DNA of 64,000 nt, from positions 1 to 64,000 of the forward strand of contig CAITDR010000124.1 in the NCBI GenBank assembly GCA_903891165.1, read 5' to 3'. The translations under genes were made by a program, and so were the position numbers. How positions within the stretch are numbered: the stretch's first letter is position 1; each line of letters starts with the position of its first letter. The notes under the pieces are model-generated. The model was not told the origin of the DNA. It was given only the letters and a program-made list of their open reading frames with translations, and did no database searches. Shown here piece after piece: positions 55,498 through 63,720 of the stretch. This stretch comes from an uncultured Pseudomonadota bacterium. Lineage in GTDB: Bacteria; Myxococcota_A; UBA796; SXON01.

Positions 55498-56532
55498 ATG
55501 GCATTGGAGCTTTCCGGAGTGGCGGTCACCGCAGGCAGGGCCACCCTGTTGCAGGGTCTGGACCTGAGCCTGGGACCGGGCCAGCTGGTGGGCCTGATCG
55601 GCCCCTCCGGCGCCGGAAAAAGCACGTTAATCAAGGTACTACTCGGCATCCGTGAGCCCTCATCGGGCACGGTGCGGCTGAACGGGCAGCCGGTGCAGCA
55701 GGCCGGACCGGTGGGCTATGTGCCCCAGGACGATGCCCTCCACGGCAGTCTTCGCGTACAAGAAGCTCTGCTTTTTGCTGCTGAGCTGCGCATGCCCACC
55801 TGGACCGATGCCGCCCGCCGCTCCCGCGTGGAGCAGGTGATCCAGCAGGTAGGGCTGGAGGAACGCCAGAAGGTCGCGATCCATCGCCTCTCCGGTGGCC
55901 AGCGTAAACGGGTGAGTGTGGCCATGGAGCTGCTGACCAGCCCCCCGGTCCTGATCCTGGACGAGCCCACCTCCGGCCTGGATCCAGGCATGGAAGCCAA
56001 GATGATGGAGCTTTTTCAGGCCGTGGCCCAGGCGGGCCGTATCGTCCTGGTCTCCACCCACGCCATGCAGAGTCTGGACCGCTGCTCCCGCCTCCTCATC
56101 CTCATGCAAGGTCGTATGATTTTTGGGGCTGCGCCCGATCAAGCGCCCGACTGGTTCGGCACCCGTAGCCTCAATGGCATTTTTGATCAGCTCCCCACAC
56201 AGCGACCCGAAACATGGGCCCAAAAATGGGCCACCGGCCGCACCCTCCTGGCCCAAAGCACCCCCGTCCAACTTTCCGCCCACTTACGCGTGGCTGGCCT
56301 CCCCGAACACCCAAGTGATACACGGCAGGGTGATACACGGCAGGGTGATACACGACAGAGTGATACACGACAGGGTGATACACGACAGGGTGATACACGA
56401 CAGGGTGATACATCCACCCCATCATCTGCTGATTCCCTGAAGCCCCCCAAAAATCTGCACCCGGCGCTTCGGGATCCAGCCCTGCAAAAACAGCTTGAAG
56501 AGCTGAAAGCCGCCCGCGAGAAAAAGGGATGA
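55498..56532 (+). CDS. ABC transporter ATP-binding protein with C-terminal [GS]DTRQ repeat
   Basis: GPSGAGKSTLIKVLLG; HRLSGGQRKRVSVAMELLTSPPVLILDEPTSGLDPGMEAKMM; tail SDTRQGDTRQGDTRQSDTRQGDTRQGDTRQGDTSTPSS. Confidence 0.92.
   Translation: MALELSGVAVTAGRATLLQGLDLSLGPGQLVGLIGPSGAGKSTLIKVLLGIREPSSGTVRLNGQPVQQAGPVGYVPQDDALHGSLRVQEALLFAAELRMPTWTDAARRSRVEQVIQQVGLEERQKVAIHRLSGGQRKRVSVAMELLTSPPVLILDEPTSGLDPGMEAKMMELFQAVAQAGRIVLVSTHAMQSLDRCSRLLILMQGRMIFGAAPDQAPDWFGTRSLNGIFDQLPTQRPETWAQKWATGRTLLAQSTPVQLSAHLRVAGLPEHPSDTRQGDTRQGDTRQSDTRQGDTRQGDTRQGDTSTPSSADSLKPPKNLHPALRDPALQKQLEELKAAREKKG
56315..56413 (+). repeat. Tandem 15-bp minisatellite (gtgatacacgRcagR), six full units plus a partial
   Basis: Read directly: gtgatacacggcagg x2, gtgatacacgacaga, gtgatacacgacagg x3, gtgatacat; in frame. 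Confidence 0.95.
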
Positions 56533-58980: not shown

Positions 58981-59826
58981 ATGTTGACACGGCAAATGGG
59001 TCCCTGGACGGTTTCGGCGCTGGGCCTTGGGGGAATGCCCTTATCTCTCAGAAGGCGGCCTTCGGAAGCGGATGCAATCAACCTGATCCATGCCGCGTTG
59101 GACGGGGGAATCACACTGATTGATACCGCCGATGTCTACTGTATCGACCACCGAGACATCGGGCACAACGAGCGGCTGATCAGCAAGGCCCTTCGCGATC
59201 GGAGCGATCGTACAAAAATCCTGGTAGCGACGAAGGGCGGACTGGAGCGCCCCAACGGGGCATGGCCCAGCAATGGGCGTCCCGAGCACATGATCGCCGC
59301 CTGTGACGCCAGCTTGCGTGCGCTCGGGGTAGAGAAAATTGCGCTCTACCAGATCCATGCCCCGGATGACGAAGTGCCCTGGGCCGACACCGTGGGCGCC
59401 GTCGCGCGGCTGAGGGAAGCCGGAAAGATCCAGGAAGTGGGCCTGTCCAACGTGAGTGTGGAGCAGATCGAGGAGGCCCGGGCCATTGTGCCCATCGTGT
59501 CGGTGCAGAACCGCTGCCATTTTCTGGATCGGAGCGGCTGGGAGGACGGGGTGATCGACCACTGCACCCGCGAAAACATCTGCTTTTTGGCCTATTCTCC
59601 GGTGGGCGGCAGCAGTGACTATGCGGATATCGGCGCCGACCCGCAGCTTATTGCGGTCGCCCGTGCACACGGTGCAAGTCCCTACGAGGTGGCCCTGGCT
59701 TGGCTCCTTACAAAAAGTCCGGTGATCTTGCCCATCCCCGGCGCCAGCCGGATGAGCAGCCTGCAGTCGATTTTGCGGGCGGGGGAGCTTTTGTTGGGGG
59801 ATGGGGAAGTGGCGGGGTTGGGGTGA
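58981..59826 (+). CDS. Aldo/keto reductase
   Basis: VSALGLGGMPLS; LIDTADVYCIDHRDIGHNERLISKAL; ILVATKGGL; IALYQIHAPDDEVPW; VGLSNVSVEQIEEA. Confidence 0.92.
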   Translation: MLTRQMGPWTVSALGLGGMPLSLRRRPSEADAINLIHAALDGGITLIDTADVYCIDHRDIGHNERLISKALRDRSDRTKILVATKGGLERPNGAWPSNGRPEHMIAACDASLRALGVEKIALYQIHAPDDEVPWADTVGAVARLREAGKIQEVGLSNVSVEQIEEARAIVPIVSVQNRCHFLDRSGWEDGVIDHCTRENICFLAYSPVGGSSDYADIGADPQLIAVARAHGASPYEVALAWLLTKSPVILPIPGASRMSSLQSILRAGELLLGDGEVAGLG

Positions 59827-59847
59827 ACCGGGAGGTGGGATTGGCGC

Positions 59848-59868
59848 GATACATTTTTATAATGTATC
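59848..59868. repeat. Inverted repeat GATACATT-TTTAT-AATGTATC
   Basis: Perfect 8-bp arms in the intergenic space downstream of the aldo/keto reductase. Confidence 0.85.
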
Positions 59869-59898
59869 ACCAAAATCAGCCTAATCCCTACATACCTG

Positions 59899-59919
59899 TG
59901 ATACATCAAAAATGTATCA
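59899..59919. repeat. Inverted repeat TGATACAT-CAAAA-ATGTATCA
   Basis: Perfect 8-bp arms; overlaps the stop codon of the nuclease-like gene. Confidence 0.9.
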
Positions 59920-60837
59920 TATCCCTGCAGAGGTTTCCTGCTGCTCCCCCTCCGACGAGTGGATCTTAAAAGATCCGCAGGAGGACGGACGATAGCCCTG
60001 AGGTGCGGTCGCTGGCAATCGCCCTCGCATCCATGCAAGTTCACGGAGTAGAATCCGTCGGATACTGGCAGCCGAGGTAGATAGTTTCACCTGCTGGCCT
60101 GCCATCTGAAGCACCACGGCCCCTTCGGCCGGTACCAGCTCCAAGTGCAGTCCGACCCGAGGGGCCTGCGCGGCAGCAACCCGACGCACTTCCGCCATCA
60201 GGATTTTCTCCAGCGAGCGGAACTGGTGGCGCGGTCGGTAGGAACCGGAAAACTTGGGAACCCGCGTCGGAAGTGGTCCCCGAACATAGGGGTACAGGTC
60301 CGCAGCGTGTTGACTCTGCACCGGCAGGACCGGAAATCCAGACTTGGTGACTCTAACAATCTCTTCGCGCGGAACATCCGCATTTTCAGGGCAAAGCAAC
60401 ACACCTTGCCATCGAATCTTGATTTTCTCCGGTAGGACAGCAAATTCGGACCGAAGTCGATCACAGCCCGCCTTCAGCTGATCCAGACCCGTTTCCAGGT
60501 TCTTGCGTTTGGTGCCCTTCAGCTCCACCAGGGTGCAATACCACGTTGCATCGTGCCCCTCAGTCCGAAGTGCAGCCCAGCGTTTTCCACAGGGGATAAA
60601 GAGCACCAGATAGTCCGGCTTTTTCACACCCTCACCACCGATCAGGGGCCTTGAACCACCCCAGTCCAGGTTAAAAATAAGGCAGATTCCTTCGTCCTGG
60701 ATAGCCTCATGAACATAAAAACGGACTCCACTCTCCGGCGGTACACTCCTGGCCCCCCGGACCATCCCTCCGACAAAAAGGTTCTCCAAAAAGCTGCTGC
60801 GCGGGTCCGCCTGACGGCGTTCAAGCCGGGGTGGCAC
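59917..60837 (-). CDS. Candidate PD-(D/E)XK nuclease-like protein, partner of ATPase
   Basis: KKPDYLVLFIPCGKRWAALRTEGHDATWYCTLVELKGTKRKNLETGLDQLKAG fits PD...ELKG...Q. GTG start at 60837 preferred (AGAGGAAG upstream); ORF extends to 60891. Confidence 0.6.
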   Translation of the reverse strand: MPPRLERRQADPRSSFLENLFVGGMVRGARSVPPESGVRFYVHEAIQDEGICLIFNLDWGGSRPLIGGEGVKKPDYLVLFIPCGKRWAALRTEGHDATWYCTLVELKGTKRKNLETGLDQLKAGCDRLRSEFAVLPEKIKIRWQGVLLCPENADVPREEIVRVTKSGFPVLPVQSQHAADLYPYVRGPLPTRVPKFSGSYRPRHQFRSLEKILMAEVRRVAAAQAPRVGLHLELVPAEGAVVLQMAGQQVKLSTSAASIRRILLRELAWMRGRLPATAPQGYRPSSCGSFKIHSSEGEQQETSAGI

Positions 60838-62206
60838 GATCTTCCTCTTCACGAATGGCAAAGTAGATGTTCTGCAGATCGCCACTCGCATCGCTCAGCG
60901 TGGGGGATCGAACACCCCAGCCCTCCTCCCACAGATCCCGCAGCTTCCCCTCCTCCATCTGCCAGGCACCCACTTCCTCTCTCTTCAGAAAGGCGGGCGG
61001 ATCCTTCAGGAACAGGTGGGAGGCCTGCCGCTTCCCCAGCTCCGTGTCGGATGTATCACCCGCAACCAGATTGTTCAGGTGGGCCATCAGGTAGGGACTA
61101 TGCGTGGTCAGCAGCACTTTTTTCCCGAGACGCACCAGGATGGCCAGTGTCTCCAGCAGCTTCGCCTGCGTCAGGGGGTGCAGGTTCAGCTCGGGCTCGT
61201 CGATGATCAGGAGCTGACCCGGATGCCCGTGCCGCATCCACAAGAGTAATGGCGCAAGCTGCTTCACGGCGGAAGATGCGTTGTAGAGGTCCAGTGGAGT
61301 GGCGCCGGGAATTGTGAGCTTCATCTCTCGCGCCGAGGGACCCAGGGACTCCCAGACCAGGCGGTGTTCGCCCATTGCGACCGCTTCCAACTGGGTTGCC
61401 AGGACGGAGACAGCGTCTTCGGGGCGAACCTTGTCGTCCAACTCGCAGAGCGCCAGAAAATCCAGGAAGTCCTCCACCGGCTGGGGAAAACGCTGCTCTC
61501 CCAGCTCCCGATAGAGCTGTTCCTGGCGGGAGAGCTGGGATGGCCCCCCCCGCTCTCTGAATAAAACCGCCTGCCGACGAACATCCAGAAGCATCTTCAG
61601 CCGCCGCTGGGACAACATTTTGTATGTTAGAACTAGACTGTTCCGTTCAGCGGGAAGTGCGAACGGCATCGGAAACAAGGACTGAGCCGCCCGATTGAGC
61701 CCGGGCCCCAAGGCCTCCAGAAGCTGCGATAGCGGAACCTCCTTTTCCGGGCCACGTTGGATCCCCGGCAAAATCCAACCAGCCTCCGTGTATCTGGCGC
61801 CGGGGATTCCGCTGATGATCGCGGCATGCAAATCCCCAGGCTCCAAAGTGAAATCCAGGATTGCCCTGTTGGCTCGGTCGGAGCCATCCTGAAAGAACAC
61901 AGGTAGCTGCTCCGCTATATTTCTGCACTGGTACCTTAACCGCTCCTCAAACTCTGCCTCAAACCGAGCAAGATGACCTAATACAAAAAGTTCTTCTTGC
62001 CGCAGTCTAATTTGAAATTCAGTTCCAACTCCCAGAAGTGCATACACCGCATAGGCCAGCCAGGTCTTCCCCGCGTGGTTCGGCCCCAAAATGGCCGTGA
62101 ACGGCCGGAGCGGCAACTCCACATCTGCCAGGGGCCCCAGGTTCTGGATACGGATCTTCAAGCGTTCTCCAAGAGATTTTCTATCCGGGGCTGGCCCCAC
62201 CTGCAA
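60821..62206 (-). CDS. AAA15/OLD-like ABC-type ATPase
   Basis: KIRIQNLGPLADVELPLRPFTAILGPNHAGKTWLAYAVYALL; QLLIIDEPELNLHPLTQAKLLETLAILVRLGKKVLLTTHSPYLMAHLNNLV. Confidence 0.9.
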   Translation of the reverse strand: MQVGPAPDRKSLGERLKIRIQNLGPLADVELPLRPFTAILGPNHAGKTWLAYAVYALLGVGTEFQIRLRQEELFVLGHLARFEAEFEERLRYQCRNIAEQLPVFFQDGSDRANRAILDFTLEPGDLHAAIISGIPGARYTEAGWILPGIQRGPEKEVPLSQLLEALGPGLNRAAQSLFPMPFALPAERNSLVLTYKMLSQRRLKMLLDVRRQAVLFRERGGPSQLSRQEQLYRELGEQRFPQPVEDFLDFLALCELDDKVRPEDAVSVLATQLEAVAMGEHRLVWESLGPSAREMKLTIPGATPLDLYNASSAVKQLAPLLLWMRHGHPGQLLIIDEPELNLHPLTQAKLLETLAILVRLGKKVLLTTHSPYLMAHLNNLVAGDTSDTELGKRQASHLFLKDPPAFLKREEVGAWQMEEGKLRDLWEEGWGVRSPTLSDASGDLQNIYFAIREEEDRATPA

Positions 62207-62277
62207 CCGCAGCCCCGCCCGGAGCTGGCTTGGCCCATGACGTCACCGTCTGCACTCTCTGCAGAAACCTTGATCCG

Positions 62278-62360
62278 TGACACATCCACTCCATGTATCA
62301 CTAAAACAACCTTCCCCTCATCACTCCCATGATACATCCAAAAAGTATCACCATGTATCA
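62278..62360. repeat. Cluster of TGATACAT/ATGTATCA half-sites upstream of ATPase gene
   Basis: TGACACAT 62278-62285, ATGTATCA 62293-62300, TGATACAT 62330-62337, GTATCA 62345-62350, ATGTATCA 62353-62360. Confidence 0.85.
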
Positions 62361-62377
62361 AATCCGCCGCCTCCCCC

Positions 62378-62581
62378 CTACCGCCGCAACCGCACCACCA
62401 CCGGCAGCGCGGCCGGCACCAGGTTCGCCACCACGGCCACACCCACCCGCTCCCAAGCCTCGACATCCGCCTGGATCGCCTCTTCCGACCACGGAAGCAG
62501 GCTGAGGGCCAGCCCAGAAGCGCTGATCAGCCCGAGCACGGCAACACTGGTAAAGATCAGGTCCAAGGTCAGAAAGTCCAT
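62378..62581 (-). CDS. Small membrane protein (67 aa)
   Basis: MDFLTLDLIFTSVAVLGLISASGLALSLLPWSEEAIQADVEAWERVGVAVVANLVPAALPVVVRLRR; two hydrophobic segments. Confidence 0.45.
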   Translation of the reverse strand: MDFLTLDLIFTSVAVLGLISASGLALSLLPWSEEAIQADVEAWERVGVAVVANLVPAALPVVVRLRR

Positions 62582-62742
62582 GATTTTTCTCCTCCACACG
62601 CGAGGCAGGTTACCAGGGCTCCCGGCCAGCGAGAGCCCCTTGCGTTGAACGTGTTTTCAGGTTAGCTGAACACCCGACAGGCTGCAAGTCTTTTCAGGTC
62701 AACACCCCCAAAAATTTCCATAGTCGAGGCAGATGAGCAGAT

Positions 62743-63720
62743 ATGGACGAAAAGCAGTTGAACAAAGCCCAGAAGTTCGTGCGGATTTTGGAGCTGATTC
62801 AGCGCCCCGGTGGGGTCGCGGCGCAAGAGCTGATCGATCGTTTTGAGGTAGATTCCCGCACTCTTCGCCGCTATTTCTCCGATCTCAAGGAGATGGGCGT
62901 GCCCCTGAAGGAGGAGTCCGGCTCCGGCGAGCGCCTCCTTGCGGTGGATCCCACCTACGCCCGTACCGGCGTCCATCTGACCCTGGCCGAAGTGCTCTCT
63001 CTCCACTTTGGCCGCACCCTTTTTACCTTCCTGGATGGCACCTCCTTCGCCTCGGAGATGGATGGCGCGATTGAGCGCCTCACCCCGGCGATCAGCCGCT
63101 TCACCCAGGACATCACCCGCGACCTGGATCGCAAGTTTATGGCCGTGGGTGAACACGCCAAGGACTACACGGGGGAAGGGGACCTCCTGGACGAGATCGT
63201 CAGCTCGCTTTTGTACAACAACCCCGCCGATGCCGAATACCGTCGTATACGCTCGGTGTCGAAGTTCTACAGGCTGGAGCCTCTGACTCTGGCCACCTAT
63301 CGGCAGGGACTCTACCTTTTTGCCCGTGACCTGGGTGAGCAGAAGGTGAAGTGTTTTGCGGTGGAGCGCTTCGTCCGCTACTCCCGCCTCCGTCGCGAGC
63401 GTTTTGACTACCCGGACTACTACGACCCCCACGACGAAACTGCCAGCGCCTTCGGAATTACCGGCGGCCCCCCTGAAGATGTGACGGCCGTCTTCACCCC
63501 CACCGTCGCGCCCTATGTGCGCGAGCGCCAGTGGCATCGTACCCAGCGTCTCGAAGTACAGGAAGATGGTGGCATTCGCCTCTGGCTGAAGGTCTCCGTC
63601 TCCCCCGAATTGAAGGAGTGGCTCCTTGGTTTTGGGCCGGAGGCCAAAGTGGAGTCCCCGCCCTCCCTGGTGGAGTGGGTACGCGACGCCCATCGTGCGG
63701 CCTTGGACCGCTACAAATGA
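62743..63720 (+). CDS. WYL-domain helix-turn-helix transcriptional regulator
   Basis: KFVRILELIQRPGGVAAQELIDRFEVDSRTLRRYFSDLKEMGVPLKEE; YRLEPLTLATYRQGLYLFARDLGEQKVKCFAVERFVRYSRL. Confidence 0.9.
   Translation: MDEKQLNKAQKFVRILELIQRPGGVAAQELIDRFEVDSRTLRRYFSDLKEMGVPLKEESGSGERLLAVDPTYARTGVHLTLAEVLSLHFGRTLFTFLDGTSFASEMDGAIERLTPAISRFTQDITRDLDRKFMAVGEHAKDYTGEGDLLDEIVSSLLYNNPADAEYRRIRSVSKFYRLEPLTLATYRQGLYLFARDLGEQKVKCFAVERFVRYSRLRRERFDYPDYYDPHDETASAFGITGGPPEDVTAVFTPTVAPYVRERQWHRTQRLEVQEDGGIRLWLKVSVSPELKEWLLGFGPEAKVESPPSLVEWVRDAHRAALDRYK

Follow-up and report, generated by a model that had tools for sequence, protein, structure and literature searches.

WonAB, found in the WASA-1 prophage of Vibrio cholerae, consists of an OLD-type ABC ATPase and a PD-(D/E)xK nuclease, and both genes and both active sites are required for its action against ICP1 (PMC12137116). 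Upon activation of WonAB, translation stops and the host DNA stays intact. The toxicity of WonB needs WonA and is abolished by deletion of wonA, which rules out simple sequestration (PMC12137116). The same authors related WonAB to the 'OLD-ABC ATPase + novel REase' operons described in silico and to PD-T4-4 (PMC12137116). PD-T4-4 of E. coli came out of an anti-phage selection (PMC9519451), and a PD-(D/E)xK domain is given for it in a review table (PMC10952713). Gabija, Septu, PARIS and class 1 OLD likewise use an OLD-type ATPase as the sensor or regulator of an effector, their effectors being TOPRIM plus UvrD helicase, HNH or AriB.

Here, we analysed a stretch of 64,000 nucleotides (the window; contig CAITDR010000124.1, positions 1 to 64,000) from an uncultured bacterium, and both open reading frames of the pair that the original prediction had proposed were present on the minus strand at the predicted positions. 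Our best explanation, which we consider probable, is that the pair is a divergent member of the WonAB/PD-T4-4/'OLD-ABC ATPase + novel REase' group, in which an ATPase-controlled nuclease aborts infection, and that the palindromes around it are ordinary gene-end elements. The features of the locus are as follows.

59847-59869 and 59899-59919: two gene-end palindromes with spacers of 7 and 5, 29 bp apart, between the convergent aldo/keto reductase and nuclease genes
59917-60837, minus strand: PD-(D/E)xK-type nuclease partner gene (P0001), 306 aa, GTG start
59920-60342, minus strand: C-terminal part of the nuclease (about residues 166-306), low-confidence prediction
60821-62161, minus strand: ATPase gene (WonA/PD-T4-4_A-like, OLD-type ABC ATPase), 446 aa from the TTG at 62161
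Within the ATPase, residues 41-48 (numbered from 62206): Walker A, GPNHAGKT
Within the ATPase, residue 188 (numbered from 62206): conserved R188
Within the ATPase, residues 333-344 (numbered from 62206): Walker B/D-loop, LIIDEPELNLHP
Within the ATPase, residues 367-370 (numbered from 62206): H-loop, TTHS
62278-62300 and 62330-62360: imperfect gene-end palindromes, 3' of a small gene (62378-62599, minus strand) and upstream of the ATPase gene

The GTG start of the nuclease at 60837 is preceded by GAGG and lies inside the 3' end of the ATPase gene, giving an overlap of 17 bp with the ATPase stop. The GC content of the pair was 0.58-0.59 compared with 0.61-0.66 in the neighbour genes, in keeping with acquisition from elsewhere.

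The open frame of the ATPase reaches a TTG at 62206 (60821-62206, 461 aa). Since the relatives of the ATPase start with 'M(K/R)xxxxNLGPL' and a GGAG ribosome-binding site precedes the TTG at 62161, the latter is the likelier start, and the protein is probably 446 aa long. When we aligned 12 ATPases, the G and GK of Walker A, R188, the EPE of the Walker B/D-loop and the THS of the H-loop were invariant. The significant Pfam matches were AAA_21 and AAA_15, no TOPRIM domain was found in the ATPase with Pfam, and the best PADLOC models were PD-T4-4_A (1.4e-39) and PDC-M47A (1.4e-29), with AriA, Old and GajA behind, all of which agrees with the OLD-type ATPase that had been predicted. A match to PD-T4-4_A at E<=1e-20 was present in 14 of 379 genomes from the phylum; the 20 other same-family genomes searched had none, indicating that the ATPase gene is accessory.

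The nuclease partner P0001, taken alone, gave no significant match in Pfam, PADLOC (0 families) or NCBIfam, and nuclease-only searches by tblastn against phylum genomes, genome contigs, viral contigs and plasmids returned nothing. A phmmer match to AcrIIC2 (E 0.012) spans the ExK-helix stretch only. The predicted signature 'PD...ELKG...Q' is present (P74 D75 ... V104 E105 L106 K107 G108 ... Q120), and the putative catalytic set is D75, E105, K107 and Q120. Against a profile of the partner family, which is matched by residues 1 to about 165, P0001 scored 7.6 bits and ranked first among 1,822 ORFs of the same genome plus 200 shuffles; the next independent ORF scored 2.6 bits, and the absolute HMMER E-value of P0001 in this decoy set was 0.34. 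The hhalign alignment to the partners gave P = 2.4e-5 over 101 columns with the catalytic residues in register, and in a 51-row alignment D75 was conserved in 50/51, E/D105 in 50/51, K107 in 47/51 and Q120 in 48/51 rows. These results bear out a PD-(D/E)xK-type partner. They also indicate that the nucleases of this family can diverge beyond all current defence-finding models yet keep their catalytic residues, and surveys demanding both genes miss such pairs, since PADLOC, Pfam and NCBIfam all fail to detect P0001.

The predicted fold held in one respect and not in another. When we modelled the nuclease by AlphaFold with the 51-row alignment, pLDDT was about 86-91 over most of residues ~40-150 and mostly low elsewhere, and this confident core shows the strand and helix order beta-beta-alpha-beta-alpha-beta expected of a PD-(D/E)xK core; the model built without an alignment reached a pLDDT of 39.7. 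However, a Foldseek search of the model against PDB gave no significant match (best E 0.14), and although the insignificant matches include the PD-(D/E)xK enzymes SgrAI, Bse634I and EndoMS, they are unusable as evidence. A PD-(D/E)xK fold is thus supported by motif and predicted topology and not by structural matches. Compared with related partners, the nuclease has about 100 additional residues, and from about residue 200 on (~100 residues) it had no counterpart in the other partners.

To see which genes adjoin related ATPases, we scanned genome contigs with the ATPase alignment only and retained the best 80 of 248 loci, which span many phyla of bacteria and archaea. Among these best 80 of 248, the next gene directly downstream was 120-240 aa long with an (E/D)xK-type motif, as judged by a loose regular expression, in 68 of the 74 readable loci, and the partner usually started no more than about 20 bp from the ATPase stop. 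Because the scan relied on the ATPase alone, the repeated presence of the partner counts as independent evidence, and it covers the ATPases of the window's clade; the co-localization expected of a genuine pair is clearly seen. On plasmids of Bernardetia, Enterococcus and Klebsiella, the related ATPase gene is directly followed by a gene of 176-210 aa, two of the three partners matching both the PD-T4-4_B and PDC-M47B models and the third matching PDC-M47B. In a member of the phylum (L037), the ATPase and its partner closely resemble those of Polyangium (L156), which suggests that the phylum is probably Myxococcota. As a separate observation, a 4.3-kb 'Streptococcus infantis' contig (L161) holds a near-identical copy (branch 0.002) of the PD-T4-4 pair of Klebsiella plasmid pKPN6, and this contig is probably a contaminating ColRNAI-type plasmid.

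We then compared the relationships of ATPase and nuclease. A tree of 85 ATPases placed the window ATPase with L048, from the same phylum, and with the methanogen copies L163 and L166 (100/96), the join with L048 involving long branches, which can meet falsely. Among 75 partner nucleases, that of L048 was closest to P0001 (z 5.4), while those of L166 and L163 ranked 9th and 32nd. An E(L/M)KG form of the active site is present in the window, L048, L163 and L166, and is seen in just 9 of the 75 partners. The concordant relatedness of ATPase and nuclease fits joint inheritance of the pair. It is conceivable, but in our judgement rather unlikely, that the window, L048 and L163/L166 form a separate deep branch, with ELKG instead of ELKS, a new C-terminal domain in the window nuclease, and perhaps a trigger or substrate different from that of WonAB/PD-T4-4. 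The deep branch, with its methanogen copies, would lend itself to studying what is sensed by the ATPase.

Detailed comparison with the known systems points to where the pair should be filed. First, the window shares with WonAB the order of ATPase then nuclease, an OLD-type ABC ATPase without TOPRIM, and a PD-(D/E)xK-type motif in the partner; the host lineage is different, and the likeness is drawn from the published description of WonAB and not from sequence identity. Second, PD-T4-4 and PDC-M47 provide the best defence models for the ATPase and have the same gene order, and the partners of their bona fide members share the D...E/DxK...Q set with the window nuclease. However, the window ATPase scored 135 bits compared with 772 for a true PD-T4-4_A. 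The window nuclease matched no PD-T4-4_B or PDC-M47B model, while the bona fide partner P0003 scored 3.6e-93, and strict membership in PD-T4-4 therefore fails. Third, as cited in the WonAB paper (PMC12137116), the 'OLD-ABC ATPase + novel REase' operons, known by comparative genomics only, have an OLD-ABC ATPase adjoining a restriction-enzyme-fold gene as in the window, and the ATPase-partner loci of our scan appear to be these operons, exact subfamily aside. Finally, the effector domains of the other OLD-type systems were not recognized in the pair or in the neighbouring proteins scanned. For Gabija, Pfam recognized no TOPRIM in the ATPase and no helicase beside it; for Septu, Pfam and PADLOC gave no HNH match for the nuclease, which has the D...ExK...Q motif instead; and for PARIS, they gave no AriB or DUF4435 match for P0001. 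The partner is accordingly unlike AriB, GajB and PtuB, as had been thought.

Thus, the pair has the features of the wider WonAB/PD-T4-4/OLD-ABC ATPase + novel REase group, namely an OLD-type ATPase with Walker A, Walker B/D-loop and H-loop and a downstream overlapping gene with a PD-(D/E)xK motif, and on sequence grounds this group is its right filing. A probable defence module is therefore upheld, but the proposal of a distinct ATPase-nuclease system is not, since the design has already been described. What is new is the member itself, with ~25% identity to its relatives and a nuclease whose C-terminus extends ~100 residues beyond the partners examined. With this pair, a recently found design for abortive infection is placed in an uncultured lineage, probably a myxobacterial one, on the outermost edge of the family.

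The two-gene anatomy, the motifs of ATPase and nuclease, the recurrent adjacency and the concordant relatedness of both proteins were established directly here. The WonAB experiments (PMC12137116) lead us to infer that the ATPase activates the nuclease, that infection is aborted and that the target lies in the translation machinery. The target comes from this one relative and could differ in the window pair. Most likely, the ATPase acts as the sensor and governs a nuclease effector, and infection is thereby aborted. The ATPase would probably dimerize in the ABC manner and bind the small nuclease, keeping it stable and inactive. A phage-induced change sensed by the ATPase would then release or activate the nuclease, which would cut a nucleic acid through its D75/E105/K107 site, and this cleavage would halt phage production while sacrificing the infected cell.

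PD-(D/E)xK folds are mostly DNA nucleases. Here, we need to consider that the pair might be a restriction-like system, with an ATPase that loads on DNA or scans it and a nuclease that directly cleaves the DNA of invading phages or plasmids without killing the host. PADLOC places the ATPase also near Old and GajA, which are DNA-acting OLD nucleases, and the additional C-terminal region of the nuclease could bind DNA. However, Pfam recognized no DNA-binding domain, and in WonAB, the sole characterized relative, the DNA is intact and translation is stopped (PMC12137116), so we regard this alternative as possible but the less probable one. A second alternative is a toxin-antitoxin-like stability module, an addiction cassette instead of a defence system, with the ATPase holding a nuclease toxin. 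The overlapping two-gene operon would suit it, as would the related pairs on plasmids, of which the Enterococcus pair adjoins a Txe/YoeB pair. We think it improbable, since simple sequestration does not explain the loss of WonB toxicity upon wonA deletion (PMC12137116) and PD-T4-4 was obtained by its anti-phage effect (PMC9519451). Abortive infection by an ATPase-controlled nuclease remains our preferred reading.

Inverted repeats had been noted on both sides of the pair and proposed to make it mobile or to regulate it. The repeats are real and far beyond chance, with 10 copies of TGATACAT/ATGTATCA in the window against 0.38 expected, but they are a genome-wide feature of gene ends and do not set the pair apart. 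The genome holds 40 copies of TGATACAT-N6-ATGTATCA with variable loops (reversed control 0) and 65 palindromes with a spacer of 0-12 (reversed-pattern control 0), compared with 0-10 in each of 20 family relatives. In the sampled contigs, the spaces between convergent genes account for 16% of the intergenic bases and contain 10 of 21 intergenic palindromes (p = 8e-4), and those between divergent genes account for 34% and contain 2 of the 21 (p = 0.012); the sample includes contigs picked for palindromes, which affects density and should not affect placement. Another eight copies fall within predicted genes, and a single repeat protein (L056) accounts for five of these. The stop codon TGA of the nuclease (59917-59919) is inside the palindrome at 59899-59919, and in several palindromes the TGA stop of the flanking gene is the first three bases, the stop of the nuclease among them. 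For either strand, the left palindrome pair folded as RNA far better than its shuffled versions (z -4.4 and -5.1). Based on these observations, we suggest that the palindromes mark gene ends in this lineage and probably serve as terminators or RNA-processing hairpins.

A spacer of roughly 6 bp between inverted arms resembles the core sites of tyrosine recombinases. In addition, both flanks show the same 7-29-5 palindrome layout with an aligned identity of 47/73, which could suggest a mobile cassette bounded by TGATACAT palindromes as recombination or transposition sites. However, the 29-bp middles of the two flanks agree at just 14/29 positions, which gives no indication that a mobile end was copied. 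The 65 copies have variable spacers and lie mostly at gene ends with enrichment between convergent genes, one palindrome contains the nuclease stop codon, and Pfam found no integrase or transposase in the flanking genes scanned. We consider a mobile cassette very improbable and keep to gene-end elements. Recombination sites of the attC or dif type were dropped for the variable spacers, the gene-end placement and the poor similarity of the two flanks, and a DNA-uptake sequence was set aside, as the single motif exceeds expectation by only a few-fold (48 against about 13 in 498 kb, two 20-kb loci masked N).

The genes flanking the pair encode a pseudouridine synthase, an ABC transporter, an aldo/keto reductase and a WYL regulator and are not a defence island, and no other defence gene was found among ten window proteins scanned with Pfam. 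The 73-aa gene at 62378-62599 is divergently paired with the WYL/HTH regulator at 62743-63720, and at least four same-family relatives have the same pairing. The WYL regulator was rejected as a pair-specific defence regulator; its orthologues occur in nearly all relatives searched, while the ATPase occurs in no other same-family genome searched.

Some minor observations concern the palindrome motif. The form TGATACAT-N5..7-ATGTATCA, also seen in L052, L053 and L054, often holds the TGA of one or both convergent genes. In L056 (10253-11282), tandem repeats of about 201 bp lie in a 1,174-aa ORF, and their 'DDTxxDVSP' segment happens to spell the palindrome. At 56315-56413 of the window, TGATACA is repeated seven times in tandem with 15-bp spacing within the ATPase gene of the ABC transporter, and this half-site motif, here coding sequence, encodes a DTRQG/DTRQS repeat tail.
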